DNA of 35,887 nt from Candidatus Aminicenantes bacterium (GTDB lineage: Bacteria; Acidobacteriota; Aminicenantia; UBA2199). Positions within the stretch are counted from its first letter, which is position 1. Each line of letters begins with the position of its first letter. Shown one piece after another: positions 430 through 32,453 of the stretch. The translations under genes were made by a program, and so were the position numbers. The notes under the pieces are model-generated. The model searched no databases. It saw only the letters and a program-made list of their open reading frames with translations, and was not told the origin of the DNA. The DNA lies in assembly GCA_026393795.1 (NCBI GenBank), contig JAPKZL010000002.1, positions 1 through 35,887 of the forward strand, given 5' to 3'.

Positions 430-1305
430 TTAAAGCAAACGTCGTATCGCTTTTTCAGGTTCTGTGGGGTCGAAACAGACCAACGCCAGTTCAGGCCCAT
501 CATGGGCCGCGGAAAAAGCGTAGGTCCGGCCGATTTTTTCCTGCCAGGAACCGGTCAGGCGCGCCGATTCGTGGACATGGCCGTGCAGCGTAACCAGGGG
601 CTGCCGCTCCTGGATGAAGCGCTGGATGGCGATGCTGCCCACGTGCACATCCAGGGGAACATGTTCCACGAAACGGCCGTCCAGGGCGGCACGGTCCAGG
701 CTGGTCTGATAGGGCGGCGCATGAAAAAGAAAAATGGACTTTTCAAGGGCGGCTCCGGCGCCCAGATTTTCAAGATCTTCCCGGATGGTATGTTCGCGAA
801 TTTCTTTTTCACCGATCGCGGCCGTCAACCTTCCCTCTTCGGGCGGGAGCGCCCCGGGATCGACAAAATGGGATACGTCGTATCGTTCCCAGTCCTTTAA
901 AGCGAAAGGCGTGGGCGGCACGCAGGAATACCCGAAAACCCGGTAATCCAGATAGGGGATTTGGCGCTGATGCATGTAGGTCCATAAGCCCTTGCCATCG
1001 TAGCGCAAAAAAACCGGTTCTTCGCTGCGGGCATCATCATTGCCCATAATGACAAAAATCTGCGGGAAGTTGTCTTTAAGAACTCCCTTCAATTTCATCA
1101 GTTCGGGGGCCAGAAAATCTTCCACGAAGCTGCTGGCCGAACTGCTTGTTTTCCCGAAATAACGGGCAGCCGACGGCAGAAGATCGCCGCCGAAAAAAAC
1201 CGCTTGTGGAACATGCAGTTCAAGTTCAGAAAAAAGAGCCCTGTAACGCGTTTCCCGGCCATGCAAGTCGCTGACAAAATAAAACGGATAACCGTCCTTG
1301 CCCAT
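430..1305 (-). CDS. Calcineurin-like metallophosphoesterase
   Basis: A 291-residue protein with the full set of metallophosphoesterase blocks in order: SDLHG (D-x-H) near residue 12, GGD near 40, GND near 88, a lone FH near 194 and HGHVHES near 240. These bind two metal ions and hydrolyse phosphoesters; the substrate cannot be told from sequence. No signal peptide is seen, so it is probably cytoplasmic. Its ATG overlaps the TAA of the upstream gene by one base (TAATG), and no Shine-Dalgarno is visible, which points to translational coupling as the third gene of the signalling operon. The downstream stop almost touches the convergent nucleotidyltransferase gene. Family assignment is firm, role unknown. 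Confidence 0.88.
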   Translation of the reverse strand: MGKDGYPFYFVSDLHGRETRYRALFSELELHVPQAVFFGGDLLPSAARYFGKTSSSASSFVEDFLAPELMKLKGVLKDNFPQIFVIMGNDDARSEEPVFLRYDGKGLWTYMHQRQIPYLDYRVFGYSCVPPTPFALKDWERYDVSHFVDPGALPPEEGRLTAAIGEKEIREHTIREDLENLGAGAALEKSIFLFHAPPYQTSLDRAALDGRFVEHVPLDVHVGSIAIQRFIQERQPLVTLHGHVHESARLTGSWQEKIGRTYAFSAAHDGPELALVCFDPTEPEKAIRRLL

Positions 1306-4289
1306 TACGAAACGGTTGTTTCGGGTTTTAAAATGACGCCCTGGCTCTTGCGCCCGTCAATCATCACCGTGAGCGGCTCCGCCAACCGGGCATGCTTCAA
1401 AAATGGAGTTTCAGCGCATACCGGCAGGGATTCGAGCCAGGGCCAGTCCATGAATCCCAGCTCGCCGTTCAGGGGAATGGTGAAATAGCCGATGCGCAAC
1501 GAAGTCATATTCTGAAAAAAATGCGACCCCTGCGACGGGTCCACATTCATGTTCGGCAGACTCACCTCCACCACCACCTTCACGCCGCTGATCTGGCTCC
1601 ATTTGACCGGGATCCCCAGCCAGGAGTCGGTGCTCCCCCAGCGGCCCGGCCCGATCAGCAGATAGGGGAGGTTTTCAGCGCGCAGCTGCGAATTGAGCTT
1701 GTCGACCTCGTCCGCGATCTGCGGGCTTTGGGCGGCATCAAACACGGCCGGTTTTACAAAAATTATGTCCTTAATCGAGTCGACGATCCCGTTGCCCAGG
1801 ACCTGGTTGCTGAAGCACAAAGTCGCTTCTTTTTTTGTTTCGGCCAATTCCACCTTGACCAGCTCATCACTGACCACCAGCGGCCGGACCTGCAAAATAC
1901 TAAATGATGCGGGAAAGACATTGGCTGCGTCCAGGGTCGCGGCAAATTCCATTTCCACCGGACAGTCCATGGCTTCACTGCTCAATTTAAGCAGGCGCTC
2001 CAGTATCTTGGCCAGAGGAAATATCTCGTTCTTCAGGATATGGGCAAAATTGACAATCCGCGGCCCGGAAAAACTGATTCCGTCATAGACGGCATCGTTC
2101 TCGCGCGAATAGGTGGAAGCCACATATTGCAGAACGCCGTCCTTTTCCGCCTTATCAAGCCCCTCCTTGACCAGGTACTGGTCTTCATCCAAAAAAGCGA
2201 TCGATGCGGTATGCTTCATGGAGATGGCATAAAAGTCCCGCTGCGAAAAATTGAACATGTCCTTGATGCTGGTAAATTGGGGCAGGATGCCGGCGTAAGC
2301 CGGGGTGAATCGCAGTGAAACCCCGCCGTCGACGACGGTTTTTCCAAGCCCCAAGGCGACGTTGACCACGCCGTCTTCCGGCTTGGCCTGGCCGACAGGA
2401 TAATAGTTGTAAGAGCGCCCCACGCCGGAAAAATCGGGATAAAAACAATCTGGGTGCAGCGTGCCGACAACGGGCTGGATGACCACGGCCATTTTTTCAT
2501 CTTCGATGCGATGGGGCGTGCTGCTGATATACGCCTTGGCTTGGCGGCAGAAGGTGGATGCGTAGACGAATTTGATGGCGTTGACCAAATTGAGAAAACG
2601 GATGTCATCGCCATATTGATCATTGGGAAGCATTTTGGTGGCATAGATCCCGGCGAACGGCAGATACAGGGAATCCTCCAGCAAGCTCGAAGAGCGGACC
2701 GCCAGCGGGACGCGAACATTCTTGATGAAATCGCGCAGATCGCCGACCATCTTGGCCGGCAAGCTGGCGTTGATGAAGCGGTTGATGATCTGGTTATCCG
2801 AATGATCCTCCACGGCGAAAGCGAGCAGATCGTTCTCGCGAATGAAATCGTCGAACATGTCGGTGCCGATGACCACCGTGCGCGGGATGGCGATGGCGAT
2901 ACTGGCAAACTCGGCCGGGTCAAAGTAGTTGGCCAGGATGCGATCCAAAAAAGCCAAGCCCCTGGCCTTGCCGCCGATGGAGCCGCCGCCGATGATGCTG
3001 AATTGCGAGTAATCCTCATGAAAATACCTGGAATAGGCTACGATCGAGCCCCGATGGCTGGAGCTGCGGATAGCGGCGATTATTTTTTTTATTTTCGCGC
3101 CCAGCCCGGGGGTTGGCGGCGGAATTTTTCCAATGAAATCCTGAACGGCATCGGCCAGGGCGAATTCGGTCCTGGCCCGCAGCCAGCGATCCAGATCGCC
3201 GCGTTCGATGAGTTCGCGTAAAACGGGGTCGGGCAGGTCGCCCAGGATGGAGAACAGCTGATTGATATTCGCGACCTTGCTCGCGGGCGCGCCTTCAGCA
3301 TCCCTTATTTCCAGCTCGCCAAAACCAAAAGAGGATAAAAGGAATTGCTTCAAATCGCGCATCAAGGTCGGGGAATTCTTGGATAAAAACGTGATGCCCA
3401 TTTTGGCCGCCATGGCTTCAGCAGCAGGTTCGCTGCTCTGCAGCAGCACGGGAAGGTTGGGCAATTCGGTGAACACTTTTTCAACAAACGAGAAGCCGGC
3501 GTAGGGATTCAGGGTTTTGTTCTGCGGGAAGCTGGAATCGGTAATGATGCCCAGCAGGTGGCCTTTGAATTTTTCGAAAAGGGTCGCCGCTTCCTCGTAG
3601 GAGGTCGCCAGCTGCACCCGGGGACGACCGTTTTGACGGAGCAGTTTTTGCGCGAAAGTCAGGTCCTCTTTGAGCGATTGCTCGTTCAGTTCGCGCAGAA
3701 GCGAAAAAACCAGCGGCAGATACGACGAATAGAAATCAATGGCATCCTCGATCAGCAGGATGTTTTGCAAGCCGTTGTTTTGCAAATCATAAATGGCATT
3801 TTTCCTGTCCTCGATGTATTGCAGGATGCCAAGCAAGATACGCCCATCTCCCTGCCAGACAAAGATCCGCTCTACCGCCGTGCCATCATCCATCTCGAGC
3901 AACCTGGAGAGTTCCGGGGTATTGAACGCCAAGCCGACAACTGGCAGACCCGGATCAATTTCCTTGACATGGCGGCCAAAGGTGAACGGATCCATGTCAC
4001 CCAGACGCATGACCGCGATGACCAGGTCGAATTTTTCATTTTTCAGGGTCTTTAACGCGTTCTCGCCGCCGCTTATCCTGGTGAATTGCGGGATATAACC
4101 AAAATTCCATTGTTGGTAGAACTTAAGAAGCAGTTCCTGCAACCGGCCGTCTTCCTCGATCATGAAATAGTCGTACAGACTGGCCACCAGCAAAAATTTT
4201 TTGACTTGATAGGGTTGGCAGTGGTTCATTTCAGCCGAAGCGGGTCGGCCGCCCGATGTTTGGTACACATTTTCCGTACTAATTTTCAC
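1305..4289 (-). CDS. REC-REC-PEP/pyruvate-binding (ATP-grasp) signalling protein
   Basis: A 994-residue multidomain protein. Residues about 30-155 look like a receiver domain whose phospho-acceptor position is Ala92. Residues about 175-325 form a second receiver-like domain keeping the acidic pair E181-D182, acceptor-like D251, S285 and K304. From about 430 to 805 there is a PEP synthase/pyruvate phosphate dikinase N-terminal ATP-grasp domain: glycine-rich GGGSIGGKARG at 434-444, RSSS at 532-535, EMEF at 779-782 and QVRP at 800-803. A C-terminal block with GPGRWGSTDSW (880-890) and DPSQGSHFFQN (917-927) follows. The swivelling phosphohistidine domain and the PEP barrel of a true PEP synthase are absent, so it is not a metabolic PpsA. 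The GTG start (4289) overlaps the upstream HD-GYP gene by 11 bp; ATG at 4229 is an alternative start. Probably a phosphorylation-responsive ATP-dependent enzyme, substrate unknown. Confidence 0.8.
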   Translation of the reverse strand: MKISTENVYQTSGGRPASAEMNHCQPYQVKKFLLVASLYDYFMIEEDGRLQELLLKFYQQWNFGYIPQFTRISGGENALKTLKNEKFDLVIAVMRLGDMDPFTFGRHVKEIDPGLPVVGLAFNTPELSRLLEMDDGTAVERIFVWQGDGRILLGILQYIEDRKNAIYDLQNNGLQNILLIEDAIDFYSSYLPLVFSLLRELNEQSLKEDLTFAQKLLRQNGRPRVQLATSYEEAATLFEKFKGHLLGIITDSSFPQNKTLNPYAGFSFVEKVFTELPNLPVLLQSSEPAAEAMAAKMGITFLSKNSPTLMRDLKQFLLSSFGFGELEIRDAEGAPASKVANINQLFSILGDLPDPVLRELIERGDLDRWLRARTEFALADAVQDFIGKIPPPTPGLGAKIKKIIAAIRSSSHRGSIVAYSRYFHEDYSQFSIIGGGSIGGKARGLAFLDRILANYFDPAEFASIAIAIPRTVVIGTDMFDDFIRENDLLAFAVEDHSDNQIINRFINASLPAKMVGDLRDFIKNVRVPLAVRSSSLLEDSLYLPFAGIYATKMLPNDQYGDDIRFLNLVNAIKFVYASTFCRQAKAYISSTPHRIEDEKMAVVIQPVVGTLHPDCFYPDFSGVGRSYNYYPVGQAKPEDGVVNVALGLGKTVVDGGVSLRFTPAYAGILPQFTSIKDMFNFSQRDFYAISMKHTASIAFLDEDQYLVKEGLDKAEKDGVLQYVASTYSRENDAVYDGISFSGPRIVNFAHILKNEIFPLAKILERLLKLSSEAMDCPVEMEFAATLDAANVFPASFSILQVRPLVVSDELVKVELAETKKEATLCFSNQVLGNGIVDSIKDIIFVKPAVFDAAQSPQIADEVDKLNSQLRAENLPYLLIGPGRWGSTDSWLGIPVKWSQISGVKVVVEVSLPNMNVDPSQGSHFFQNMTSLRIGYFTIPLNGELGFMDWPWLESLPVCAETPFLKHARLAEPLTVMIDGRKSQGVILKPETTVS

Positions 4290-5493
4290 TATACTTGTTT
4301 TTAATGGCTCTCAGCACGTCGTAAATGGAGAAAAAAACATCAACCAGTTCGGGATCAAAATGCTTCCCTTTCTGATCGCGTATATGCTGCAGGACTTTCT
4401 CCTCCGGCCATTCGTCCTTGTATATCCGTTCCGAAGTCAAGGCATCGTACACGTCAGCCAGCGCGACGATCCGAGCCGTCAGCGGGATTTCAACGCCCTT
4501 TTTCCCCGGCCCGGAGCTTAAGTCATCGGCAAAAATGTCGGCGATTTTCCCGGGGTAGCCCGTCCCGTCCCACTTTTCGTGATGGTTCAGGGCGATTTCG
4601 GATGCCATGTCATCCCAATCCGAGGTGGAATCCTTGAAGAGCCGGGCACCGAGGATCACATGCCCCTTCATTTGCCTGAACTCTTCCTGGCTTAAGGGAC
4701 CGTTTTTTTTCAGCACCAGATCGGAGATCGCCACCTTGCCGACATCGTGCAGCATGGCCGCTATGCGCAAGATGTCGCGGATCCTTTTGATTTCATTTCC
4801 GCTCTTGCGCTCATTCAATGCCCAGGCACTGTAAATCTCGATGGCGTAAGCGGCGACGCGGTTGACGTGGGCTCCGGTTTCTTCGGGGTCATGCAACTCG
4901 GCGATCTTGATCATGCGCAGGATAATCTCCCGGGTCATCTTGGCATTTTCGATGCAGCTGGCCGCGTGATTGGCGAAAAAGGAAACGACCAGCTCGTCTT
5001 CCTTGCTGAAAGGAATAACCGATTTTTTATCATCCATGGCGTTGATGATCTGCATGATTCCGATCAGCTTGCCGTAGTGGGTGATCAAGGGAACGGTCAA
5101 AACCGAACGGGTCAGGTAGCCGGCCGACTCGTCGAACGAACGGTTGAACTTGTAGGGGACGCCAGCGGGCAGCCGGTAGGCATCGGCGATGACCAGCGGT
5201 TTCTGGGTCAAGGCGACATAGCCGGCCATCGATTGGTCGTTGATCTCCAGGCTGTGATTCTGGTAAAGATACTTTTTGCCGCTCTCTTTTTGGATGAGGG
5301 TGTCGTTCTGGACGAAATTGATCCGCAATTTTCGATTTTCAAGCAGATAGATCGAACCGGCATCGGCCCACGAAAAACGCCGCGCTTCAAACAGGACCCG
5401 GTCCAGCAGCGAATCAATGTCCCTGATCTGATTCAAAGCCTCGCTGATGGCTAAAATCGCCGTCGCTCTGTCTTTCTTTAAAACACTGATCAT
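4279..5493 (-). CDS. GAF domain - HD-GYP phosphodiesterase
   Basis: A 404-residue protein. Residues roughly 15-185 form a GAF sensor domain (SIYLLENRKLRI, SVLTVPL, LIGIMQIIN). Residues roughly 190-400 form an HD-GYP domain with MLHDVGK, the HHEKWDGTGYP signature and ALADVYDAL. Intact HD-GYP proteins hydrolyse cyclic di-GMP (sometimes cGAMP) to linear products or GMP, here probably in response to a ligand of the GAF domain. I chose the ATG at 5493: the frame stays open to 5616, but that would run into the tatD start, and a TTGACG-N17-TATAAT promoter lies just upstream of 5493 with a weak GAGAAA ribosome site. It is the first gene of an operon with the receiver/ATP-grasp protein and the phosphoesterase. 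Confidence 0.88.
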   Translation of the reverse strand: MISVLKKDRATAILAISEALNQIRDIDSLLDRVLFEARRFSWADAGSIYLLENRKLRINFVQNDTLIQKESGKKYLYQNHSLEINDQSMAGYVALTQKPLVIADAYRLPAGVPYKFNRSFDESAGYLTRSVLTVPLITHYGKLIGIMQIINAMDDKKSVIPFSKEDELVVSFFANHAASCIENAKMTREIILRMIKIAELHDPEETGAHVNRVAAYAIEIYSAWALNERKSGNEIKRIRDILRIAAMLHDVGKVAISDLVLKKNGPLSQEEFRQMKGHVILGARLFKDSTSDWDDMASEIALNHHEKWDGTGYPGKIADIFADDLSSGPGKKGVEIPLTARIVALADVYDALTSERIYKDEWPEEKVLQHIRDQKGKHFDPELVDVFFSIYDVLRAIKNKYSEN

Positions 5494-5577: not shown

Positions 5578-6363
5578 ATGCTCAACAAATGCGGCTACAG
5601 CGATTTTCACTGTCATTTGGACGACGACTGCTTTGCCAAGGACTGGCAGCAGCTCGTCAGCCGCTGTTTTGCCCAGGGAATGTGCAACATCGTGTCGGTG
5701 GCCGACCCGTTCAAGGAAATCTCATTGGGAAAAACTAAAGAAATAATGGCCTACCATGCCAATGTATATGCGGTTTGCGGAGCCCATCCCCACCAGGCCG
5801 ATCTGTATTCCCCGGCCATCGAAAAACGAATTTTCGCTTTTTACGAAAAAGCAAAATATATGGCTGTCGGCGAAGCGGGGCTCGATTTCCATTATGATTT
5901 CGCCAGCCGCGAGAATCAGGAAAAAACCTTCCGGAGACAAATCGCCATCGCCCGCGAGCTCGCTCTCCCGCTGGTCATCCATTCCCGGAATGCCGAAGTT
6001 GAAGTCCTGGAAATACTGCTCGCCGAAAAATTCCCTGGTTCGGTGGTCTTTCACTGTTATACCGGGAACATGGCCAGCGCCGCGGAAATTTTGCAGAGAG
6101 GTTATTCGATTTCCATTTCAGGAATCGTCACCTTTAAAAAAGCGGACGAACTCAGGGAAATCGTCACGATGATTCCCATGACGAACTTGTTCACGGAGAC
6201 CGATTCGCCTTATTTATCGCCCGAACCCAGGCGCGGCGAAACGAACACACCGCTCGGCGTGATCGAGGTGGTGAAGCAGGTCGCCGCCTTAAAAAATATG
6301 ACCGCGGCCCAGGTTAATGAAGCGGTCGCGCAAAACTTGTCACGCCTGCTGAAAATAAATTAA
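5578..6363 (+). CDS. tatD: TatD-family metal-dependent hydrolase (DNase-like)
   Basis: A 261-residue TIM-barrel hydrolase of the TatD family. Visible metal-ligand and family motifs in order are DFHCHL near the N-terminus, [25 protein letters not shown] and [11 protein letters not shown], then the RGETNTP stretch typical of the family end. Length matches the usual 255-265 residues. Known members are Mg-dependent 3'-5' exonucleases or DNases acting in DNA repair or turnover. The ATG at 5578 agrees with homologues and sits 6 nt after a -10 box. The gene is divergent from the HD-GYP operon and its stop overlaps the gyrA stop by 4 bases in convergent orientation, leaving no room for an intrinsic terminator between them. 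Confidence 0.93.
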
Positions 6364-8816
6364 TCGGTCTCCCGGGTCACTTTTTCAATGGCCACCAGCC
6401 GGTCGCCGGGTTTCAGGTTGATCAGCTTGACCCCCTGGGTGGCGCGGCCCTTGGAGCGGACTTGCAGCGCGTCATGTTTATTCACAATGCCCTTCTCCGA
6501 GCACAGGATGATCTCGCAATCCTCCTCGTGCAGCGTGACCAGGCCGATTACTTTTCCGAGTTTTTGGGTGATCTTGATGTTGATCAACCCCTTGCCGCCC
6601 CGCTTCTGCAGTCGGTAGAGGGACAGATCGGATTTTTTGCCGAAGCCGTTTTCGGTCACGGTCAGGATGTACTTGCCTTTTTTGTCGATCACGTCGGCGC
6701 CAACCACAAAATCATTTTTGGCCAATTTGATGGCCGTCACCCCGCGCGCCCCGCGCCCCATGGCGCGAACATCCTTTTCGTTGAATTTCAGGGCCTTGCC
6801 AAGATAGGTTCCCAGGATTATTTCATTGTTGCCATCGGTGACCTGGGCTTCAAGGAGCATGTCGCCGGCGGGGACTTCGGCGGCAATGATGCCGTTGATG
6901 CGCGGGTGCGAAAAAGCGGAAAGGGCGGTTTTCTTGACAAAGCCGTACTTGGAAAACAGCACCACGTACTTGTCCTCGGAAAATTCCTTGATGTTGATGA
7001 CCGAGCAGACCTTCTCCTCGGCCCCGATACCGATCAGGCGGTTGATGGGCTTGCCGCGTCCGGCGCTGTCGCCTTCCGGAATTTCATACACCTTGATCCA
7101 GAACATGCGGCCGTTCTCGGTGAAGGACAAAATATAATCGTGGGCCGAAGCGATGAATATCCGCGAAATGACATCCTCTTCCTTGAGGCCGATCCCGCGC
7201 TTGCCCATGGTGCCCCGGTGCATGCTGCGGTAGGAACTCAGCGTTGTCCTCTTGATATAACCGTTGCGGGTATAGGAAATGACGAAATCCTCGTCCTTGA
7301 TCATGTCTTCGATCTTGAATTCGGACAGTTGCTTTTCAACGATCACGGTGCGACGCGGATCGGCATATTGTTCGCTGACTTTTCGCAGTTCTTCCTTGAT
7401 CAGGTTCAACACCATGCGCTCGCTGGACAGAAGCTCCTTCAGATAATTGATCAGCTTGATCAGTTCAATGTATTCGTTCTCCAGCTTTTCGATTTCCAGG
7501 CCGGTCAGGCGGTACAATTGCATGTCCAGGATGGCATCGGCCTGGACCTGGGTCAGGGGAAGCTTTTCGGTCAAATTGGCGCGCGCCTCCAACCGGTTCT
7601 TGGAGGTGCGGATGATCTTGATCACCAGGTCAAGTTTGCCCATGGCGATTTTCAAACCCTCGATGATGTGGGCGCGCTTCTCTGCCTTGTCCAGTTCGAA
7701 CAGGGAGCGGCGGCGGATGATCTCCTTGCGGTGGCCCAGGAAATAATTGAAGTAATCGATCAGGTTGAATTGCTTGGGTTGCTGGTTGATGATCGCCAGG
7801 AAGATCATCGAATAGCTCGCCTGCAGCTGCGTGTGCTTGAAAAGGGCGTTCAAAATCACATCGGGAATTTCATCTTTTTTTATCTCGATCACCATGCGCA
7901 TGCCGTCGCGGTCGGATTCGTCGCGCAGGTCGGATATGCCGTCAATTTTTTTGTTCTTGACCAGATCGGCGATGTTTTCCAAAATTTTCGCTTTATTGGT
8001 TTGATAGGGAATTTCGGTGACGACAATTTTCTGCCGCCCGCGCGCGTCGGTCTCGATCACCGATTTGGCGCGCACGACGAAGCTGCCCCGGCCGGTTTCA
8101 TACGCGGTGCGGATCATGTCCTGGCCGAAGATGAACCCCCCGGTCGGGAAATCGGGGCCAGGCATGATCTTCATCAGTTTCGCCACGCTGACATTGGGGT
8201 TGTCGACGTAATGGATGAAGGCGTTGACCAGTTCACCCAGGTTGTGCGGCGGGATGGCCGTGGCCATGCCGACAGCGATGCCCGAGGTGCCGTTCAAAAA
8301 CAAGGTCGGCAGCAGGGAGGGAAAAACGACCGGTTCGGCCAGCGAGCCGTCATAGTTGGGGATGAAATCGACCGTGTTCTTGTCGAGGTCGTTGAGCAGC
8401 TCGTTGGTGATTTTTTCCAGGCGGACTTCGGTGTAGCGCATGGCGGCCGGCGGATCACCATCGATGGAACCGAAATTTCCCTGCCCATCGACCAGGGGAT
8501 AGCGCAGGGAAAAATCCTGCGCCAGGCGGACCAGCGTGTCGTAGACGGCCATGTCACCGTGGGGGTGGTATTTGCCGATGACGTCGCCGACGATGCGGGC
8601 CGATTTTTTGTACGGCTGATTGAAATGCGAACCCGTTTGGTGCATGGAAAAAAGAGTGCGCCGGTGGACCGGCTTCAGACCGTCGCGGATATCGGGGATG
8701 GCCCTGCCAATAATCACGCTCATCGAATAATCCAAATAAGACGTTTTCATCTCATTTTCGATGCTGACTTCCTCAATGGCCAGTTTCTTTTCTTTTTCCT
8801 TCTCTTTTTCTTCCAT
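6360..8816 (-). CDS. gyrA: DNA gyrase subunit A
   Basis: An 818-residue GyrA. The breakage-reunion domain is complete: [12 protein letters not shown] near 48-59, the quinolone region with [12 protein letters not shown] at 83-94, and catalytic Tyr128 in [10 protein letters not shown]. The C-terminal beta-pinwheel spans about 505-818. Two oddities: position 89, equivalent to E. coli Ser83, is Met, and the canonical GyrA box QKRGGKG lies at 737-743 in what aligns with the fifth blade, while the first-blade position (532-538) reads MHRGTMG. The N-terminus has an unusual run of Glu and Lys. With GyrB it forms the tetramer that introduces negative supercoils using ATP. It starts 9 bp after gyrB with an AAGGAA ribosome site and is the last gene of the dnaA-dnaN-recF-gyrB-gyrA operon. 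Confidence 0.96.
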
Positions 8817-8825
8817 CGTTGTTCC

Positions 8826-11240
8826 TTAGATGTCGAGGTTGCGGACGTTTAAGGCATTGCTCAAAATGAATTCCTTGCGCTTGGAGGCGTCGTTACCCAT
8901 CAGGGTGTCAAAAATGACTTCGCTTTCCTGAAAGTCGTTCACGGCCACCTGCAGCAGGGTCCGCTTCTCCGGGTCCATGGTCGTTTCCCACAACTGTTCC
9001 GGATTCATTTCGCCAAGCCCCTTGTAGCGCTGGATGGTCAAGCCTTTTTTCAACCGCTCGAACAGAAAGGCAACCAATTCCCGGCGGTTCTCTACGGTAT
9101 AATTCTCCTTGCCGATCAGCAGATAGTATGGGGCTAGCGGAAACTCGGCCAGCTTTTCATAGATTTCGTGGATGTCGGAAAATTCGGGTCCAGTCAAAAA
9201 AGCATGATCAATCACCCGGCCGGTTTTTACGCCGTTGAATTCAAATTCGATTTCCAAAACATAGGTGGTGTATTCCTTGTCATATTTGATGTCCACATTC
9301 TTGCATAGGGAGTTCTCCAGCAATTTTTTGGCCAGGCGCGCTGCTTTCTCCTTGGTTTTAAAATCATTTTCGCTCTTAATGATTTCAATGAGCTTTTTGG
9401 TCAGGGAGCGCGGCATTCCCCGCTTTTCCAGGTTGTTCATCAACAGGTTCTTTTTATGAACCAGCTTGATGAATTTGAGCAATTTCTGCCCTTTGAGCAA
9501 TTCTTCCTTGAAGCCTTCCCGATAAAAGACAACCTCGTCGCCGATCTTGGCGAACAGATAGTTTTCCAGTTCCTTCTCGTTTTTCAGGTAGGCCTTGGTC
9601 TGGCCTTTTTTTATCAAGTACAACGGCGGTTGGGCCAGATAGAGATAACCCTTGTCGATCAGCGAATGCATTTGCCGGAAGAAAAAGGTCATGATCAGGG
9701 TGCGGATATGGGAACCGTCCACATCGGCGTCGGTCATGATGATAATTTTATGATAACGTATTTTTTCAATGTCATAATGTTCTTTGCCGATGCCCACGCC
9801 CAGGGCGGCGATCATCTTTTTTATTTCATCGCTTTCAAGCATTTTGGTCGTGGAGGCTTTTTCCACGTTGAGTATTTTGCCTTTCAAGGGAAGAATGGCT
9901 TGAAAGCGCCTGTCGCGGCCTTGCTTGGCGGAACCGCCGGCCGAATCCCCTTCGACGAGGTACAATTCACTCTCTTCGGGACTTTTGGATTGACAATCGG
10001 CCAGCTTTCCGGGCAGGGTGGTGTTTTCCAGCAAACTGGATTTCCTGACCAGATCCTTTGCTTTTTTGGAAGCTTCCCTGGCCTTGGCTGCCAGGAGAAC
10101 CTTGTTGATGATCGCCCGGGCAACGTGCAGATTATCATCAAAATAGTCGCCGAGTTTTTTGTTGACAAACGACTCGACGATCCCCTTGACGTCGGAATTT
10201 CCCAGTTTGGCTTTCGTCTGGCCCTCAAACTGGGGGTCTTTAATGCGGATGGAAATCACCGCCGTCAGCCCCTCGCGCACATCATCACCGGAAAAACCCT
10301 CCTTGCAATCCTTGATCAAATTGTTGGCTTGGGCAAAATTGTTGATCGTGCGCGTGATGCCCGATTTGAAACCGGACAAATGGGTTCCGCCCTCAATCGT
10401 GTTGATGTTGTTGACAAAGGAAAAGATCGTGTCATTGTAAGAATTGCCGTATTGAAAGGCGATCTCGATTTCGATATCTTCCTTCTTGTTGGATAGATAG
10501 ATGGGGGAGGCGTGGATTTTTTCCTTCGCTCCCACCAGGTATTTAACGTATTCGACGATGCCGCCCTTATAATAAAAGGTCTCCTTTTTATCCACCCGTT
10601 CGTCATTCAAGGTGATGGTCAACCCCTGGTTCAGGAACGCCAACTCTCTCAGCCGCCGGGATAAAATGCTGGCTGTGAATTCGACCGCTTCGAAAATTTC
10701 CTCGTCAGGCCAGAAGGTGACCTTGGTTCCCCGCTTGCTGGTCTTGCCGATTTTGGTGAGCTCGGTCACCGGCTTGCCGTACTCGTACTTTTGCGAATAA
10801 ATGTTACCGCCCCTTTTGATCTCCAAATCCAGTTTGGCCGAAAGGGCATTCACCACCGAAACGCCGACCCCGTGAAGACCTCCGGACATTTTGTAGCTGT
10901 TCTTATCAAATTTACCGCCGGCGTGCAGGGTGGTCATGACCACTTCGGCGGCGGTTTTCCCTTCCTCCTTGTGCAGGTCGACCGGGATGCCGCGGCCATT
11001 GTCGTTGACCGTGACCGAATTATCGAAACGGATGGTCACGTCGATCTGGTCGCAAAAACCGCCCATGGCTTCATCGATCGAATTGTCCACGACTTCATAA
11101 ACCAAGTGATGCAGCCCAGAAGAGCCCGTGCTGCCGATATACATGGCCGGACGGACCCTGACCGCCTCCAACCCCTCCAGAACTTTTATGTTTTCCGCCG
11201 TGTACGACTTGTCCTCGAAATTGGCATTGGTTTTGTCCAC
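8826..11240 (-). CDS. gyrB: DNA gyrase subunit B
   Basis: An 804-residue GyrB from the GTG at 11240, which has an AAGGAG site 8 nt upstream; an in-frame TTG at 11246 is possible but lies too close to that site. Features in order: GHKL ATPase with [18 protein letters not shown] and [15 protein letters not shown]; transducer domain; TOPRIM with [15 protein letters not shown] and DADVDGSH; then an insert of about 170 residues as in proteobacterial enzymes; and the C-terminal [14 protein letters not shown] tail for GyrA contact. It is the ATPase half of gyrase. The start lies 2 bp beyond the recF stop, with the ribosome site inside recF, so expression is coupled to the replication operon. Confidence 0.96.
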
Positions 11241-11242
11241 GA

Positions 11243-12280
11243 TCAATTCTCCTTTTCAAGTTCGAACAAATGATCGAATTTTTCATTCTTGAACACGGAC
11301 GTGGCAATGATCTGCATCTGCGGAAAATGGTCGATAATGAAATTCAGATTTTTTTCGTCCATGGCCACATCATAATCATCGATCAAAAAAACCGGGAAGT
11401 CATTCTGGGAGCGAAAAAACAAATTGATGAAGGCCAGATAAACGATAATGAGATGTTTCTTCTTTTCACCCGACGAGAACAACTGCAATTTTTTCCCAGA
11501 CACCATGAGCGCAAAACGGTCGCGCTGCGGGCCGAGCAGAGACCGCCGACTCCGGATCTCCGAATTTTTCATCAGGCACATATCGTTAAAAATAGACGAT
11601 TCAGATATCTCGCGATTGGAGAGCAGGGCGGGAAAATATTTGATTTCCAGTTCTGAAGCGAAAGCGGTTTTGATTTCACCGTTCAATTGGTTTATGAAAT
11701 TCATCCTTTCTTTGACAATTTCAAATCCACTCTCGGATAATAATTTATTCCAACTGTCCAATTCGGAGCTATTAACTGGTTTAGTCAATTTTTTCAGCAA
11801 AAAATTCTTTTGCTTTACCAGGTGATTATACCGCAAAATATGGTGTAAGTAAAGGGAGTGCACCCCAAATATGAAGCGATCGATCATTTTTCTAAAGTGG
11901 GGGTTGTGGTCGATGAACAAATTGTAGTTTAAAGAGGAAAAGAACAGGGGATACAAATATTTCCCGATTTCGGCCACTGGCCCCTTGGCGCTATCCATTT
12001 GCAATTTGAATTTTTTTTCAAACCTGGCGATCAGATTGTTTTCCACCGCCTGCCGGTTTATCTCGGCCTGAATGAAAAAGCCGGAGCTGTCGAAATTGAC
12101 CATTTCCTGCTTGCTGACCTGCAGAAATGACTTGCCAAAACCAAGCAAATACAAGGCTTCGATGATCGATGTTTTGCCGCTGCCGTTGGCGCCATAAATC
12201 AAATTTTTTGAGTTGCCGAAGTGGATGGTAAATTTGTTTAAATTTCTAAAACCATTGATCTGCAAATTTTTTACTAGCAA
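11243..12280 (-). CDS. recF: DNA replication and repair protein RecF
   Basis: A 345-residue SMC/ABC-type ATPase. Walker A is GANGSGKT at 30-37, the ABC signature is SSGEKKK near 270, and Walker B is VFLIDDYDVAMDE near 300. The N-terminus LQINGFRNL matches the RecF family start. RecF loads RecA at gapped DNA with RecO and RecR. The signature helix is diverged from the common SQGQQR form. The start is a TTG 7 bp after the dnaN stop, chosen because no ATG or GTG lies near and because the family begins at this point. The gene sits in its classical place between dnaN and gyrB. Confidence 0.93.
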   Translation of the reverse strand: MLVKNLQINGFRNLNKFTIHFGNSKNLIYGANGSGKTSIIEALYLLGFGKSFLQVSKQEMVNFDSSGFFIQAEINRQAVENNLIARFEKKFKLQMDSAKGPVAEIGKYLYPLFFSSLNYNLFIDHNPHFRKMIDRFIFGVHSLYLHHILRYNHLVKQKNFLLKKLTKPVNSSELDSWNKLLSESGFEIVKERMNFINQLNGEIKTAFASELEIKYFPALLSNREISESSIFNDMCLMKNSEIRSRRSLLGPQRDRFALMVSGKKLQLFSSGEKKKHLIIVYLAFINLFFRSQNDFPVFLIDDYDVAMDEKNLNFIIDHFPQMQIIATSVFKNEKFDHLFELEKEN

Positions 12281-12287
12281 GTAGAAT

Positions 12288-13391
12288 TTAAATGTTCAAT
12301 GGCATAATGATATAGATGAAATGAGAGCTGCTGCTGTCTAAGGGCTTGAAAAGAAAAGAGCTTTCGCTGTCATTCAAGCCGATCGAAATTTTTTCAGAAT
12401 TGGTATGAGTCAGAAAATCAAGAACAAAACTACCGTTAAAACCGACGTTGACCGCCTTTCCCTGATACTCGATCGGGATTTCATCATAACCTTCGCCTTT
12501 TTCCGGCGTCGTTCGTTCCAGTGCCAATTTATTTTTGGAGAATTTGAACAAGACGCCGTTGTTCCTGGTTTTAAAGATCAGGATCCGGCGCAGGGTTTGC
12601 AACAATTCTTGTGAATTGACGATGGCTGTCTGCTCGGTCTTTTCAGGAATAACGGTTTTATAGTTTGGAAATTTTTGATCAACGATGCGCGAGCATAGGA
12701 TCCTGTTTTTGTGCTTGAAAAAAAGATTGTTCTTGTCATAGGCGAACTCAATCTCTCCCTCGTTGCCTATCTTTAAAACCTCAAGCAATGTTTTTCTGGA
12801 AAGAATGTATTCCACAGGATCGGCGACCGGAAATTCGCCATCAAAAAATGTGTACGACAAGCGATGACCGTCGGTGGCGGCCATTTCCAGCCTGTTGTCC
12901 GAAATCGTCATCAACGCGCCGCCCAGGTTGAACTTCAACTCCGGAGAAATCACGTAATAACAATTGTTGATCATGGTATGAAAATCAGCCAGGGAAAGTT
13001 TCAAGGCAGTCGACAGGTCGTTGACCGGCAATTCTGGATAATCCGACGATTGCAGACCCAGCATTTTGTATTTGCTTGTTTTTTTCTCATTGGTGATCAG
13101 AATTTGCAAATCATTGTCTTCGGAAATTTCAATTTTCCCTTCAGGCATTTTTGAAATCAGATCATACAAATCCTTGCCGTTCACTGTAAAGGCGCCGGTC
13201 TTTTGAATATCCACTTGAATGTTGGTAGTTAAACCAATTTCCAGATCGGTGGCGACCATTTCCAAAATGCCGCCATTCTGGGCGGTCAACTTGATATTCT
13301 GCAAAATCTCCATGATGGCTTTCTTCTCAAAGATCCCTTGAAACAGCCGCAACTCGTTTTCAAGTTTTGCTTTTTCCACAAAAATTTTCAT
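12288..13391 (-). CDS. dnaN: DNA polymerase III beta sliding clamp
   Basis: A 367-residue DnaN with three repeated clamp folds. Recognisable are VATDLEIGL near 48, AATDGHRLSY near 170 and the C-terminal YIIMPLNI tail, which closes the binding groove for polymerase and other partners. The ring of two subunits tethers DNA polymerase III. I chose ATG 13391, which has a GGCAGG-like ribosome site about 6 nt upstream; a TTG two codons earlier is less likely. It follows dnaA after a 155-bp AT-rich spacer that is a candidate origin element, and is followed by recF after 7 bp. Confidence 0.96.
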   Translation of the reverse strand: MKIFVEKAKLENELRLFQGIFEKKAIMEILQNIKLTAQNGGILEMVATDLEIGLTTNIQVDIQKTGAFTVNGKDLYDLISKMPEGKIEISEDNDLQILITNEKKTSKYKMLGLQSSDYPELPVNDLSTALKLSLADFHTMINNCYYVISPELKFNLGGALMTISDNRLEMAATDGHRLSYTFFDGEFPVADPVEYILSRKTLLEVLKIGNEGEIEFAYDKNNLFFKHKNRILCSRIVDQKFPNYKTVIPEKTEQTAIVNSQELLQTLRRILIFKTRNNGVLFKFSKNKLALERTTPEKGEGYDEIPIEYQGKAVNVGFNGSFVLDFLTHTNSEKISIGLNDSESSFLFKPLDSSSSHFIYIIMPLNI

Positions 13392-13546
13392 ATTCAACCT
13401 GCCTTCTTATTTTTAGTCAAAATATATAATAATAAAATTATTAAAAACAAGCAATAAGAAAAAGTGGAAAAAATTGAAAACAATGATGGGGTGAATGGCT
13501 TCTCCAATTTTCACTTGTTGAAAACTTGTTAATCTTGTTGAAAAAA
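13392..13546. other. AT-rich dnaA-dnaN spacer, candidate oriC element
   Basis: This 155-bp gene-free spacer has a strongly AT-rich block at about 13403-13463 that could act as the DNA-unwinding element. Beside it are two exact 11-base direct repeats CTTGTTGAAAA (13514-13524 and 13534-13544) with a shortened CTTGTT copy at 13525-13530 between them, and an AGTGGAAAA site (13463-13471) one base off the DnaA-box-like sites upstream of dnaA. The location between dnaA and dnaN is a common origin site in bacteria. No consensus TTATCCACA box is present, so the call is positional. Confidence 0.5.
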
Positions 13547-14884
13547 TCAATCGGTAAAAAATTCAACATAGTAATTGACTTTTCTGGAAAAATCGTCGTC
13601 GGTTTCCAGAAGTTTTTCTATTTTTTTTATGGAATGAAGCACCGTTGTATGGTGTTTGCCGCCGAATGAATTGCCGATTTCAACCAGGGGATAACGCGTC
13701 AGTTTTTTTGTCAGGTACATGGCCACCTGCCTGGGCAGGGCGATCTTGGGTGAGTTGTTTTTTGATTTTAATTCCTCAATCTTAATATCAAACTTTTCCG
13801 AGATAAATTCCTGAATGGTATCAATGGTGATGATCTTTTTTTCAATATTGATGTACGGCTTCAGGGCCTCCTTGGCAAATGGCAAGGTGATGTCGGCCGA
13901 TTGCAATTCGGAATGTTTCAAATCGGCATAACCAAGCAAGCGGTTAAGAGCCCCTTCCAGTTTTCTGATATTGTCCTTAATGGAAGTCGCTAAAAAATAG
14001 ACCACTTCATTGGGGATGACAAAATCGTTGTGGAAGGTGTTTTTCCTTTCGGCAATTTTTCTTTGCAGTATGGCGATTCTTGCTTCCAAATCATATGGGA
14101 GGATGTCAACGATGCCGCCCATTTCAAACCTTGATTTTATCCTCTTTTCTAGGTCCGGCATATTGTCGGGATGCTTGTCGGCGCAAATGACAATCTGCTT
14201 TTCCTGCTGGATCAGGCTGTTGAAGATGTAATAGAATTGTTCACTGGTTCCGCCCCACTTGGTGATATATTGGATATCATCGATCAGCAGGACATCGATT
14301 GAGGTATACTTTTTCAAAAATTCAGACCGTTTGTTCAGGCGGGTATATTCGACATACTCGTTCATGAAATCACTGGTGGTCAGGTAAATGACGTTGATGT
14401 TGGCGTTGTTTTCAACGATGCGGTTGCCGATCGCCTGCATCAGGTGCGTTTTGCCGAGTCCGACGTCGCTGTATATGTACAGGGGGTTGTATGATTTGCC
14501 GGGGAATTCGGACACGCTGTAAGCGAAGGAATAAGCGATGCGGTTGGAATCGCTCTGGACCAGAGAATCAAATGTGTATTTTTTTTGCAATCGCGATTCG
14601 TTGTTGAGATTTTTTTTTGCGCTTTCTTTGTGGCCGCGTGGATTTTCTTCTTCGCCCAAAGGAACTATCTTGGTGACGAAATTGAAGTTCTTCTTGGTAT
14701 AACTATTTATATTTTCCAGCAGGTTCTGCTTGATCCAAAGCAGATTTTTCTGTTCCGGGGCCCCGAGAAAAAGGGTGTTTTCAAGGGTACCGATATATTT
14801 TAACGGTTCGATCCATTTTTTGAATGAGGGTTCATCCAAAACGCTTTTTAGATATTTTGTCAGTTTTTCCAGGTTGTTCATCAT
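13547..14884 (-). CDS. dnaA: Chromosomal replication initiator DnaA
   Basis: A 445-residue DnaA from ATG 14884 (ATG 14881 and GTG 14899 are alternatives; a GGTGGA site favours the two ATGs). Domain I is at 1-75, a short linker at 76-100, and the AAA+ domain III has Walker A SDVGLGKT at 139-146, Walker B LLIDDI at 199-204, arginine finger in KSRFEMG and sensor II NIRKLEGALNRLL near 305-317. Domain IV has PRQVAMYL at 384-391 and GGKHHTTVLH at 408-417. Two DNA-contact positions depart from E. coli: the Arg399 equivalent is Asn377 and the Asp433 equivalent is His411. The first Walker A glycine is Ser. It opens the origin and loads helicase. A promoter lies at 14962-14990, with DnaA-box-like sites in its leader suggesting autoregulation. 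Confidence 0.95.
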   Translation of the reverse strand: MMNNLEKLTKYLKSVLDEPSFKKWIEPLKYIGTLENTLFLGAPEQKNLLWIKQNLLENINSYTKKNFNFVTKIVPLGEEENPRGHKESAKKNLNNESRLQKKYTFDSLVQSDSNRIAYSFAYSVSEFPGKSYNPLYIYSDVGLGKTHLMQAIGNRIVENNANINVIYLTTSDFMNEYVEYTRLNKRSEFLKKYTSIDVLLIDDIQYITKWGGTSEQFYYIFNSLIQQEKQIVICADKHPDNMPDLEKRIKSRFEMGGIVDILPYDLEARIAILQRKIAERKNTFHNDFVIPNEVVYFLATSIKDNIRKLEGALNRLLGYADLKHSELQSADITLPFAKEALKPYINIEKKIITIDTIQEFISEKFDIKIEELKSKNNSPKIALPRQVAMYLTKKLTRYPLVEIGNSFGGKHHTTVLHSIKKIEKLLETDDDFSRKVNYYVEFFTD

Positions 14885-14891
14885 TCCACCA

Positions 14892-14923
14892 TTTTCCACA
14901 ACTATTTTAACAAATGTGGAAAA
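14892..14923. promoter_or_regulatory. Inverted pair of DnaA-box-like sites upstream of dnaA
   Basis: TTTTCCACA at 14892-14900 and its reverse complement TGTGGAAAA at 14915-14923 face each other across 14 bp. Each differs from the consensus DnaA box TTATCCACA at one base. They lie in the predicted 5' leader of dnaA, overlapping its possible GTG start, where DnaA binding could autoregulate the gene or take part in origin function. Inferred from sequence only. Confidence 0.45.
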
Positions 14924-15028: not shown

Positions 15029-16408
15029 ATGAAAGACAAAGCATTGCTTAATCAGGTTCAAAAAAAAATCCAGGAATTACAGGTTGAGTTTTTAGATTTA
15101 AAGATACTCGATTTAAAAGGCAAGCTGCATTCGTTGCTGCTTCCCAGTAAAATGCTCGACGCCAAGCTGATCGAGAGCGGGGTCGGTTTTGACGCCTCCT
15201 CCTATGGATTTGCCAAGCCGGAAAAGAGCGATATGGTGATGATCCCCGATCTGGGCACGATGGTCATCGATCCTTTTCGCGAAAGAAAGACCGCGATTTT
15301 CCTGGCCAACATCCACCTGGCCGACAGCGGGCGCACCCGCTTCGCCGAGGACCCGCGCTTCATCGCCCTCAAGGCAGAAGATGCGTTGGCCAAATCAAAG
15401 ATTGGCACCAGTGCCCTGTTCGGACCTGAATTTGAATTCTTTATTTTCAAGGAAGTCGGCTTTGGGGTCAACGCGGAAGGAAGTTTCTATTTTTTAAAAA
15501 AAGACAGCGAAGAAAAAAGAAACTTCTATCATGCCGGCTCGCCGGATGATGAGTTCATTGATTTTAAAAACGAGGCGGTTGCCCTGTTGCAAACTTTGGG
15601 TGTCGACATCAAGTATCACCATCACGAAGTGGCGGTCAACCAGCATGAAATCGAGACCAAGTTCAACCCATTGCTAAAAACCGCCGATCAATCCGTAATC
15701 ATCAAGTACGTTTTGTTTAACCTGGCCAAAAAACGTAACTTGTACGTAACCTTCATGCCCAAGCCTTTTTACGGCAAAGCCGGAAATGGCTGGCACGTGC
15801 ACCAATATATTAAAAATAAGGAGAAAAATGTTTTCCTAAAAAAAGGGAATTATGCCAACCTTTCGGACATCGGGCTCCATTACATGTCTGGACTGTTGTT
15901 TCATTCTGGTTCCTTGTGTGCTTTTTCCAACCCCTCAACGAATTCTTATAAAAGATTGGTCAAAGGATTTGAAGCCCCGATTTCGGCAATTTTCGCCATG
16001 TCCAACCGGAATGCCGCCATTCGCATTCCGGCTTACGTGGATGAAAACGAGACGCGAATTGAATACAGGCCTGGAGACTCCGCAACCAACCCGTATTTGT
16101 TCTTAGCGGCCATGTTGCTCTCCGGCATCGATGGAGTCAACAAAAATATCTCCCCCGAGAAATTCAATTTCGGCCCCTTCGATGGCGTGATTCCCGAAAC
16201 CCAGGTATTTAAAAACAAGATCAAAGAGCTTCCCGAAAGCCTGGCCGAGGCGTTGGATTGCCTGGAAAAGGATAACGAGTATTTGCGCTACAACAATGTA
16301 TTCGATTCAGGCCTCATTCAGCAATGGATAAAAATGAAGAAACTCGAAATTTTCGAGGTCGCCCAGATCCCCCATCCCAAAGAATTCGAATTGTATTTTA
16401 ACTTTTAA
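15029..16408 (+). CDS. glnA: Type I glutamine synthetase
   Basis: A 459-residue GSI enzyme that makes glutamine from glutamate, ammonia and ATP in the cytoplasm. Motifs in order: GFDASSYGF and SDMVMIPD (N-terminal domain), GPEFEFF with metal ligands, HHEVAVNQHEIE, MPKPFYGKAGNGWHVH, NPSTNSYKRL, GFEAP flap, NRNAAIRIP and RIEYRPGDSATNPYLFLAA. The C-terminus HPKEFELYF is typical. The region that carries the adenylylated tyrosine (NLYDLP in enterobacteria) reads NFGPFDGVIP, so regulation by adenylylation is not expected. The ATG at 15029 is the family start and lies 6 nt after a -10 box. It is divergent from dnaA and shares its control region. Confidence 0.95.
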   Translation: MKDKALLNQVQKKIQELQVEFLDLKILDLKGKLHSLLLPSKMLDAKLIESGVGFDASSYGFAKPEKSDMVMIPDLGTMVIDPFRERKTAIFLANIHLADSGRTRFAEDPRFIALKAEDALAKSKIGTSALFGPEFEFFIFKEVGFGVNAEGSFYFLKKDSEEKRNFYHAGSPDDEFIDFKNEAVALLQTLGVDIKYHHHEVAVNQHEIETKFNPLLKTADQSVIIKYVLFNLAKKRNLYVTFMPKPFYGKAGNGWHVHQYIKNKEKNVFLKKGNYANLSDIGLHYMSGLLFHSGSLCAFSNPSTNSYKRLVKGFEAPISAIFAMSNRNAAIRIPAYVDENETRIEYRPGDSATNPYLFLAAMLLSGIDGVNKNISPEKFNFGPFDGVIPETQVFKNKIKELPESLAEALDCLEKDNEYLRYNNVFDSGLIQQWIKMKKLEIFEVAQIPHPKEFELYFNF

Positions 16409-17211: not shown

Positions 17212-17970
17212 ATGGGTGAAATTATAGCGGTTGCCAATCAGAAGGGTGGGGTGGGAAAAACCACCACTGCGATCAATCTGTCGGCAGCTCTGGCTATTGC
17301 CGAAAAGCGGGTTTTGCTGATCGATCTTGATCCCCAAGCCAATGCCACCACCGGAATCGGCATGGATAAGAACGCAAACAAAAAAGACATCTATTCGATT
17401 TTGGTCGGTGAAAACAGCATCCGCGAGTCGATGGTGCCGACCGAACTTAAATATCTCAAAATCGTCCCGGCTTCGCGGAACCTGGCCAAGTTTGAGCTGG
17501 AGATTGTTTCTGAGGACAACAATCATTTGTATCTGAAAAATGTGCTTGCGGAACTGGAGAGCGAATACGACTATTTGTTTATCGACCTGCCCCCTTCCTT
17601 GGGGTTGCTGACCATCAACGCCCTGACCGCGGCCCACAACGTGTTGATCCCGATCCAGGCCGAATACTATGCGCTGGAGGGGTTGTCCGATTTGATGAAT
17701 ACGATCAACCGCATCAAGGAGCATTTCAACCCCGTCCTTGATATCAAGGGTGTGCTTTTGACCATGTATGACGAACGCACCAACCTCTCCAAACAGATTG
17801 AGGACGAGTTGAGGAAATTTTTCAAGACCAAAGTTTATGAAACGATAATTCCGCGCAATATTCGTCTTTCCGAAGCGCCCAGTTTCGGCAAGCCTATCCA
17901 GGTATACGATATCAAATCGGCGGGAACCCGGGCCTATATGTCCTTAGCCAAGGAGATGATGAAAAAATGA
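17212..17970 (+). CDS. parA: Chromosome-partitioning ATPase ParA (Soj)
   Basis: A 252-residue ParA/MinD-type ATPase. The deviant Walker A KGGVGKTTT is at 11-19, Walker A' is LLIDLDPQANAT near 34-45 and Walker B is LFIDLPPSLG near 119-128. Length is typical for Soj-type chromosomal ParA without an N-terminal HTH. It forms ATP-dependent DNA-bound dimers that move ParB-parS complexes. The ATG at 17212 is the family start, but the AAAGG before it is almost adjacent, so initiation may be weak or coupled to rsmG, whose stop is 5 bp upstream. It overlaps parB by 4 bases (ATGA). Confidence 0.96.
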   Translation: MGEIIAVANQKGGVGKTTTAINLSAALAIAEKRVLLIDLDPQANATTGIGMDKNANKKDIYSILVGENSIRESMVPTELKYLKIVPASRNLAKFELEIVSEDNNHLYLKNVLAELESEYDYLFIDLPPSLGLLTINALTAAHNVLIPIQAEYYALEGLSDLMNTINRIKEHFNPVLDIKGVLLTMYDERTNLSKQIEDELRKFFKTKVYETIIPRNIRLSEAPSFGKPIQVYDIKSAGTRAYMSLAKEMMKK

Positions 17971-18809
17971 AACGAAATGTCTTGGGCAAGGGGATCGCGG
18001 CCATAATTTCCAACGAACCAATCGGCGAAAAAAAACTTTTCGATATCGCAGTCGACAATATCTATCCCAATCCTTTCCAGCCGCGAAAAAATTTTCGCGA
18101 GGATGCGCTTCGGGAACTGGCCGAATCGATGAGGGAGATGGGGATCATTCAGCCGCTGGTCGTGTTCAAGCGCGAAGGCAAGTATTTTCTTGTCGTTGGC
18201 GAAAGGCGTTGGCGGGCAGCGCAGTTGCTGAAATGGGAAAAAGTACCGGCACTGGTCAAAGAATTTTCTGAAGATGACGTTATGGCTGAAGCCTTGATCG
18301 AGAACATTCAAAGGGAAGAATTGAATGCCATCGAAATCGCCGAAGGGATCGAAGCGCTAATCGCCCAGAGCGGGGAAGGACAACATGAAATCGCCGGTAA
18401 GCTGGGGATGAATCGTGCCACGGTGAGCAATTTTTTAAGGCTGCTGAAGTTGCCGGCAAAGATTAAAGAATACGTGGTCAATGAAAAGCTCGATCAGGGG
18501 CACGCCCGCGCTTTGCTGACATTAAAAAGCAGCAGCGACATGCTGGAGGCAGCGAACCGCATAATCAGAAAGAATCTTTCTGTCCGCCAGGTTGAAATGT
18601 TGGTGAAGAATTATTACGTTTTACCCGAAAAATCCGACCCCGATCCGGATATTATGAAAATGGAGAACAAACTGACCCAGTATTTGGCGAGCAAGGTGAA
18701 GTTGGCCTATGCTAAAACCGGGAAAGGAAAAATCGAGATTTTTTTCAATTCTCTGGCTGAATTTGAGCGTTTGTTTTCGATTTTGAGCAAGGAGAAAAAA
18801 AATGAATAA
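17967..18809 (+). CDS. parB: Chromosome-partitioning protein ParB (Spo0J)
   Basis: A 280-residue ParB. Visible in order: LGKGI at 6-10 (ParA-stimulating N-terminus), YPNPFQPRK near 33, GERRWRA near 78 (CTP-binding motif), ENIQREELN near 112 (second CTPase motif), HTH around EIAGKLGMNRATVSNFLRLL near 140-159 and a C-terminal dimerisation region. ParB loads at parS, slides as a CTP-dependent clamp and acts with ParA. Two parS sites lie just upstream. Its ATG overlaps the parA stop by 4 bases and its end overlaps the bactofilin gene by 8 bases. Confidence 0.96.
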   Translation: MKRNVLGKGIAAIISNEPIGEKKLFDIAVDNIYPNPFQPRKNFREDALRELAESMREMGIIQPLVVFKREGKYFLVVGERRWRAAQLLKWEKVPALVKEFSEDDVMAEALIENIQREELNAIEIAEGIEALIAQSGEGQHEIAGKLGMNRATVSNFLRLLKLPAKIKEYVVNEKLDQGHARALLTLKSSSDMLEAANRIIRKNLSVRQVEMLVKNYYVLPEKSDPDPDIMKMENKLTQYLASKVKLAYAKTGKGKIEIFFNSLAEFERLFSILSKEKKNE

Positions 18810-19188: not shown

Positions 19189-21376
<2,188 letters not shown>

Positions 21377-29844: not shown

Positions 29845-29894
29845 CGCTCAAGGGTAACATAAACGAGCTCGTTTGCCAACGGCTTCAATTGCAG

Positions 29895-29924
29895 TGGACA
29901 CGATCGATCTTCCTGTGCTATAAA
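29895..29924 (+). promoter_or_regulatory. Promoter of first GT39 gene, leaderless spacing
   Basis: TGGACA (29895-29900), an 18-bp spacer and TATAAA (29919-29924), ending 6 nt before the ATG at 29931. No Shine-Dalgarno is visible. Confidence 0.6.
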
Positions 29925-29930
29925 TATTCA

Positions 29931-32384: not shown

Positions 32385-32395
32385 AGGGTAACTAT

Positions 32396-32437: not shown

Positions 32438-32453
32438 CTGGCGTCTGAAATTC

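Follow-up and report, generated by a model that had tools for sequence, protein, structure and literature searches.

What can an ATP-grasp domain of the phosphoenolpyruvate (PEP) synthase type do when it stands behind receiver domains and lacks the rest of the enzyme? The question is raised by a locus at one end of a 35,887-bp stretch of Candidatus Aminicenantes DNA (contig JAPKZL010000002.1; hereafter the window). A sequence-only reading had proposed that three overlapping genes form a phospho-signalling operon with c-di-GMP as input, in which the truncated ATP-grasp enzyme modifies some other target and a phosphoesterase reverses the modification. An ORF check and Pfam searches recovered all three minus-strand ORFs, together with the end of a fourth gene:

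4279-5493, minus: GAF-HD-GYP gene, a putative cyclic-di-GMP phosphodiesterase with GAF input (Pfam GAF 6.9e-13, HD_5 8.8e-24)
1305-4289, minus: REC-REC-linker-PPDK_N(ATP-grasp)-CTD gene (P0001, 994 aa; hereafter REC-PPDK)
3795-4202, minus: REC1, degenerate receiver, residues ~30-165 (Response_reg 4.2e-6, below the Pfam cut-off; receiver fold in the AlphaFold2 model)
3324-3764, minus: REC2, intact receiver, residues ~176-322, with D251, S285 and K304 (conservation and fold)
1827-2981, minus: PPDK_N ATP-grasp domain, residues 437-821, with K441, R532, T551, E781 and Q800 (PF01326, 7.1e-35)
1308-1826, minus: C-terminal domain (CTD), residues 822-994, motif LLIGPGRWGSxDxxLGIPV...IVE...SQGSHFFxN
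430-1305, minus: calcineurin-type metallophosphoesterase gene (P0003, 291 aa; Metallophos PF00149 1.5e-8, above the cut-off)
1-426, plus: nucleotidyltransferase (NTase) domain, the C-terminus of a ~1060-aa PPDK_N-CTD-NTase protein, cut at the contig edge

The receiver-gated ATP-grasp protein and its neighbours

Pfam matches, motifs and AlphaFold2 receiver folds bore out the domain content first described for the three genes. The GAF-HD-GYP protein has intact HDxGK and HHExxDGTGYP motifs, by which it is a putative c-di-GMP phosphodiesterase; an alternative upstream start at 5616 is possible and would overlap tatD. The phosphoesterase carries the calcineurin-like set of ligand motifs (DxH, GD, GN(D), H, GHxH), and its metal ligands D13, H15, D41, N89, H195, H243 and H245 are invariant in 13 diverse orthologs. 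The reported overlaps of 11 and 1 bases exist in the window if the genes start at GTG 4289 and ATG 1305, but the first of them is not conserved: in L005/L029, a sister sequence with 87% identity, 48 nt separate the HD-GYP stop from the point at which the REC-PPDK frame first opens. The spacing between these two genes falls into two classes within the window genus, and the junction of REC-PPDK with the phosphoesterase is always tight and of variable exact length. Because the overlaps are not conserved, the fixed stoichiometry deduced from them has no support.

In the AlphaFold2 model, two receiver folds occupy the N-terminus of REC-PPDK, with Foldseek matches that include the REC-REC response regulator PleD, and a helical linker connects REC2 to PPDK_N. 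Judged by acceptor Asp, Ser/Thr, Lys and fold, only REC2 qualifies as a complete receiver. REC1 has lost the acceptor, position 93 being M or V in 38 of the 40 aligned rows having the domain, whereas among the rows having REC2, D251 is kept in 40/42, S285 and K304 in 41/41 each and the E181/D182 pair in about 40-41; the L035 homolog even gives a Response_reg match above the cut-off at this position. D251, which the sequence-only reading had named, is thus the correct phospho-acceptor position.

The ATP-grasp domain belongs to PPDK_N by both its PF01326 match and its ATP-binding residues, since K441, R532, T551, E781 and Q800 are kept without exception in 46/46 relatives. Its top fold and profile matches in the PDB are HpeI (9goj) and rifampin phosphotransferase (RPH; 5hv2/5hv6). 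R532, T551 and K441 align with Arg117, Thr136 and the GGK lysine (Lys22) of RPH, where K22, R117 and T136 are essential and their mutation abolishes resistance (PMC4844700). Given this invariance, REC-PPDK is unlikely to be catalytically dead; a defective nucleotide site, which would speak against the original proposal, is not what the alignment indicates. The description of the protein as a PPDK_N domain under receivers, with neither PEP-utilizer (phosphohistidine) nor PEP domains in Pfam, was likewise right: we did not find a PF00391 swivelling phosphohistidine domain with Pfam, HHalign or Foldseek of the CTD, nor a Pfam match to the C-terminal PEP/pyruvate TIM barrel, and the protein ends ~170 aa past PPDK_N.

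Several known systems resemble parts of this arrangement. PEP synthase and PPDK (PpsA) have the same PPDK_N ATP-grasp domain with its ATP-binding K, R, T, E and Q, but REC-PPDK lacks their PF00391 domain and PEP-binding TIM barrel and has two receivers in front and the CTD behind. The split dikinases HpeHI, CreHI and PpsAB, which are phenol kinases (PMC12167813), also keep a PPDK_N ATP-grasp apart from the swivel domain, and HpeI (9goj) is the best Foldseek match of REC-PPDK. They are linked to aromatic catabolism, however, whereas REC-PPDK is linked to glutamate dehydrogenase (GDH; see below), its ATP-grasp is fused to receivers and CTD, and its cluster contains no swivel partner: no separate swivel subunit gene was seen nearby, and the genome has its PF00391 genes on contigs C218, C82 and C147, with none on C2 or C122. 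RPH (PMC4844700) has the ATP-grasp fold and catalytic residues in common with REC-PPDK, which lacks a drug-binding or swivel domain and scores 20.1 bits against the NCBIfam cut-off of 999.

The C-terminal domain and a second PPDK-like protein

The sequence-only reading had missed three elements, namely the conserved CTD, a second PPDK-like protein and the glutamate dehydrogenases. The CTD has no Pfam match at E<=1, yet R883, W884, D888, E908 and H923 are invariant in 46/46 relatives. Its AlphaFold2 model (pTM 0.83, built from only 27 sequences) has no PDB match below E 0.03 in Foldseek. By its sequence conservation it is a new domain, standing where the phosphohistidine and PEP domains are missing, and as modelled it cannot be recognised as a phosphohistidine domain or assigned to a known fold. 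A divergent TSHAA-like phosphohistidine swivel, considered for the GSHFF at a helix start, was rejected for now (HHalign 0.1%, nothing in Foldseek).

The nucleotidyltransferase at 67-426 had been taken for a separate adjoining gene, but its frame is open to the start of the window, which is the contig end. The window part and residues 928-1063 of the L029 protein share 85% identity. Residues 4-935 of a ~1060-aa protein are encoded on another contig of this genome, C122, downstream of a glutamate dehydrogenase gene; an overlap of 44 exact bases with the window start shows that C122 is linked to the window. The long protein consists of a GAF-like N-terminus, PPDK_N, the same CTD and the NTase. 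In C122 (locus L051) it changes frame relative to L029 at ~5211-5220, near residue 722-726, and the last ~120 bases of C122 past the overlap do not match the window, so that either a frameshift or an assembly error is present. The NTase was also compared with MntA, the antitoxin of the type VII MntA/HepT system. It has a weak similarity as a small NTase domain (27.8 bits against an NCBIfam cut-off of 60), but it forms the end of a 1060-aa protein and has no HepT neighbour, and this assignment was rejected. So was a defence system, for which PADLOC gave weak generic domain matches only.

The CTD is common to three groups of proteins (HHalign 99.5%): REC forms, short forms of 590 aa with PPDK_N-CTD only and no receivers, and long forms with PPDK_N-CTD and in some cases the NTase. 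REC-PPDK has orthologs over nearly its full length in Desulfobacterales, Bacteroidota, Spirochaetota, Ignavibacteriota and Acidobacteriota; the complete REC-REC-PPDK_N-CTD architecture is widespread in the last of these and occurs in Desulfobacterales, Prolixibacteraceae, Spirochaetales and Ignavibacteria. In a maximum-likelihood tree the long and the short forms each make one clade, and the REC-PPDK of the window, with those of its genus and of genome G087, is sister to the short clade (100/100). Short forms occupy a GDH-short-long operon, and the window genus has no short form; as its receiver-bearing sister, the REC-PPDK of the window takes the short-form slot beside the long gene. In some Bacteroidota and Spirochaetota (L040, L042, L048, L050) REC-PPDK has an extra N-terminal extension of ~550 aa that has no Pfam match and repeatedly matches the GAF-like N-terminus of the long protein; it is probably made of several GAF-like sensor domains.

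Conserved gene neighbourhoods

Linkage was counted in 297 Acidobacteriota genomes, with proximity defined as within 3 kb and with counts that ignore phylogeny. REC-PPDK had an NADP-specific GDH within 3 kb in 67/92 cases from about 26 families, at a median gap of 162 bp, GDH being upstream in all 60 same-strand pairs. An NADP-GDH was present in 83 of the 89 genomes with REC-PPDK as against 26 of the 208 without; three of these 26 have closely related GDHs. For the long PPDK-NTase protein, the neighbour within this distance was the other, archaeal-type GDH, in 47/61 cases. From these counts, each PPDK subfamily goes with a GDH type of its own. In a genome of several megabases that has one or two such genes, proximity by chance would be expected in well under 1% of cases. 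Outside the phylum, GDH was near REC-PPDK in 5/13 loci: downstream in three Desulfobacterales and one Prolixibacteraceae genome and divergent in one Ignavibacteria genome. The link is thus found again there in other gene orders, which tempers the missing correction for phylogeny. The linked GDHs that were tested exceed the NCBIfam cut-off as NADP-GDH. In the window genome an archaeal-type GDH lies beside the long gene on C122, and in the window genus the NADP-GDH is on another contig.

The phosphoesterase follows a different partner. It is present in 24/297 Acidobacteriota genomes in an all-or-none manner, every copy being a close ortholog (at least 51% identity), and adjoins an NTase domain almost throughout, with about one or two exceptions at a contig end or outside the search reach. 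This NTase may be part of the long protein, stand alone (L119, L105, L121) or be a remnant (L104). Stand-alone forms are found beside the phosphoesterase in genomes G087, G099 and G242; those of L119 (6845-7180), L105 (2386-2721) and L121 (6661-7023) have 127-141 aa and are convergent with it, and in the genomes of these three loci the long PPDK protein is located elsewhere. The NTase-phosphoesterase pair can therefore exist as its own unit.

How many of the three window genes belong together can also be read from these neighbourhoods. The link between REC-PPDK and the phosphoesterase is evolutionarily real, REC-PPDK being directly upstream of the phosphoesterase in the window genus and in G205, G218, G226 and G086, which represent three further families. 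A fusion of the two in G205 and G218, suggested by open frames of ~1270-1300 aa, was discarded, as these are overlapping frames in GC-rich DNA and the genes are in different frames. The HD-GYP gene adjoins REC-PPDK in all loci of the window genus that include that flank and in no locus outside the genus. Co-occurrence of three genes, as originally proposed, thus holds for REC-PPDK with the phosphoesterase but, outside the window genus, not for HD-GYP, and a place of HD-GYP and c-di-GMP in the core has no support.

A possible control module for glutamate dehydrogenase

GDH linkage is the strongest functional clue to the "other target" that the sequence-only reading had left unnamed. Our tentative interpretation, to which we would give a probability of about 0.42, is that the window genes form the end of a larger module dedicated to GDH, a phosphotransferase system of the PPDK type gated by receivers, with the NTase and the phosphoesterase as opposing modifiers. 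The module would comprise GDH, the PPDK_N-CTD-NTase protein, a second PPDK_N-CTD protein (with two receivers here, and elsewhere also as the receiver-less 590-aa form) and the metallophosphoesterase. A histidine kinase would phosphorylate Asp251 of REC2 and so switch the PPDK-type ATP-grasp, which would use ATP to modify the partner GDH or a bound effector, the CTD perhaps taking over from the lost swivelling phosphohistidine domain, either as acceptor or for docking. Modification of GDH would set ammonia assimilation or glutamate breakdown, and the partner NTase domain and the phosphoesterase might work against each other, one writing and the other erasing a nucleotidyl or phosphoryl mark. 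In the window genus, c-di-GMP may be connected with the module through the GAF-HD-GYP protein added upstream. In this way an uncharacterised ATP enzyme that resembles PEP synthase and bears receivers may control ammonia uptake or release through glutamate.

GDH is not proven as the substrate, because genes that are co-regulated, or whose products work in one metabolic route, would be linked in the same way. The 26 genomes that have an NADP-GDH but no REC-PPDK, and the separate contig of the NADP-GDH in the window genus, also speak against the interpretation, and no fold match hints at the role of the CTD. When linked and unlinked GDHs were compared, no residue stood out as a modification site and the differences were clade-like. 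Reportedly, the NADP-GDH of E. coli carries phosphohistidine, which we take as a lead, not as evidence.

The main rival is metabolic: the two PPDK_N-CTD proteins would phosphorylate a small molecule of glutamate, ammonia or keto-acid metabolism, and the NTase and the phosphoesterase would process the product. The closest solved relatives of the ATP-grasp domain, HpeI and RPH, are small-molecule dikinases (PMC12167813, PMC4844700), GDH is itself a metabolic enzyme, and the invariant R883, D888, E908 and H923 of the CTD look enzyme-like. That the PPDK proteins carry receiver, GAF and NTase domains nevertheless suggests control, the same core accompanies two different GDHs with no other common pathway gene seen, and the cluster has no gene for a phosphohistidine domain, the three of the genome being on other contigs; we regard this explanation as unlikely, though a serious competitor. 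That the PPDK_N domain merely senses ATP/ADP in an inactive, allosteric subunit would agree with the missing phosphohistidine domain and a CTD unrecognisable as a phosphocarrier, but is very doubtful in view of the catalytic residues, essential in RPH and invariant in 46/46 relatives, and of the invariant histidine and charged residues that the CTD keeps.

Two further explanations concern the partners of REC-PPDK. If GDH linkage were incidental, the operon could be one with c-di-GMP input whose truncated ATP-grasp transfers phosphate or pyrophosphate to some unspecified protein, with the phosphoesterase undoing the transfer. HD-GYP motifs are intact and the three genes stay together throughout the window genus; HD-GYP is, however, missing from every cluster outside it, GDH is present across several phyla and the phosphoesterase tracks the NTase domain instead of HD-GYP, all of which makes this quite improbable. 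A slightly better case, still an improbable one, can be made for a self-modifying sensor pair, in which the PPDK proteins would be the substrates of NTase and phosphoesterase, in a GlnD-PII-like manner, and GDH would be controlled by binding, not covalently. It would account for the fusion of the NTase to a PPDK_N-CTD protein and for the phosphoesterase accompanying the NTase so regularly; several NTase-bearing clusters have no phosphoesterase, so that the NTase can work without it. The same observations, though, fit GDH as the target equally well.

GlnD and GlnE combine a polymerase-beta-type NTase with an opposing hydrolase in nitrogen control, their targets being PII or glutamine synthetase. 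The module proposed here similarly has such an NTase and an opposing hydrolase next to an ammonia-assimilating enzyme, but it would target GDH, its NTase is fused to PPDK_N-CTD and its hydrolase is separate and calcineurin-type. A stronger form of our GDH-module interpretation is speculative and, we think, rather doubtful: a new PPDK-like family in which the CTD replaces the phosphohistidine carrier would be a dedicated covalent regulator of GDH, with distinct members for the NADP- and archaeal-type enzymes, receiver-gated and balanced by NTase and phosphoesterase, as the GDH counterpart of GlnD/GlnE.

Linkage to two GDH types offers a first testable function for the PPDK_N-CTD family and suggests a layer of post-translational control of ammonia assimilation outside PII/GlnD/GlnE. 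It also flags the CTD, a conserved domain of unassigned fold with an invariant histidine. Since only their ATP-grasp domain is recognised, such proteins probably end up annotated as PEP synthase, and models of these organisms would then contain an erroneous step of carbon metabolism. The domains are known. Their combination, like the CTD and the link to GDH, seems to be new to the open full-text literature, our search of which (subscription papers being outside its scope) found no paper on the REC-PPDK architecture or its GDH linkage.

Elsewhere, the window that carries the GDH-linked module also has, at 15029-16408 (plus strand), an ORF that looks like a member of the glutamine synthetase family. 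Throughout the window genus (L029, L030, L053, L054) the PPDK/phosphoesterase operon has gyrA as its neighbour, and positions 6360-14899 read as a replication-start gene block with gyrA, gyrB, a recF-like ORF, a dnaN-like ORF and dnaA, with parA/parB-like ORFs at 17212-18809. A CTP-synthase-like ORF of 370 aa (19906-21018, plus) has a premature end and an out-of-family tail, a possible frameshift of the gene or the assembly. Two neighbouring paralogous multi-membrane proteins with the look of PMT-type glycosyltransferases (29889-34925, plus) represent a tandem duplication.
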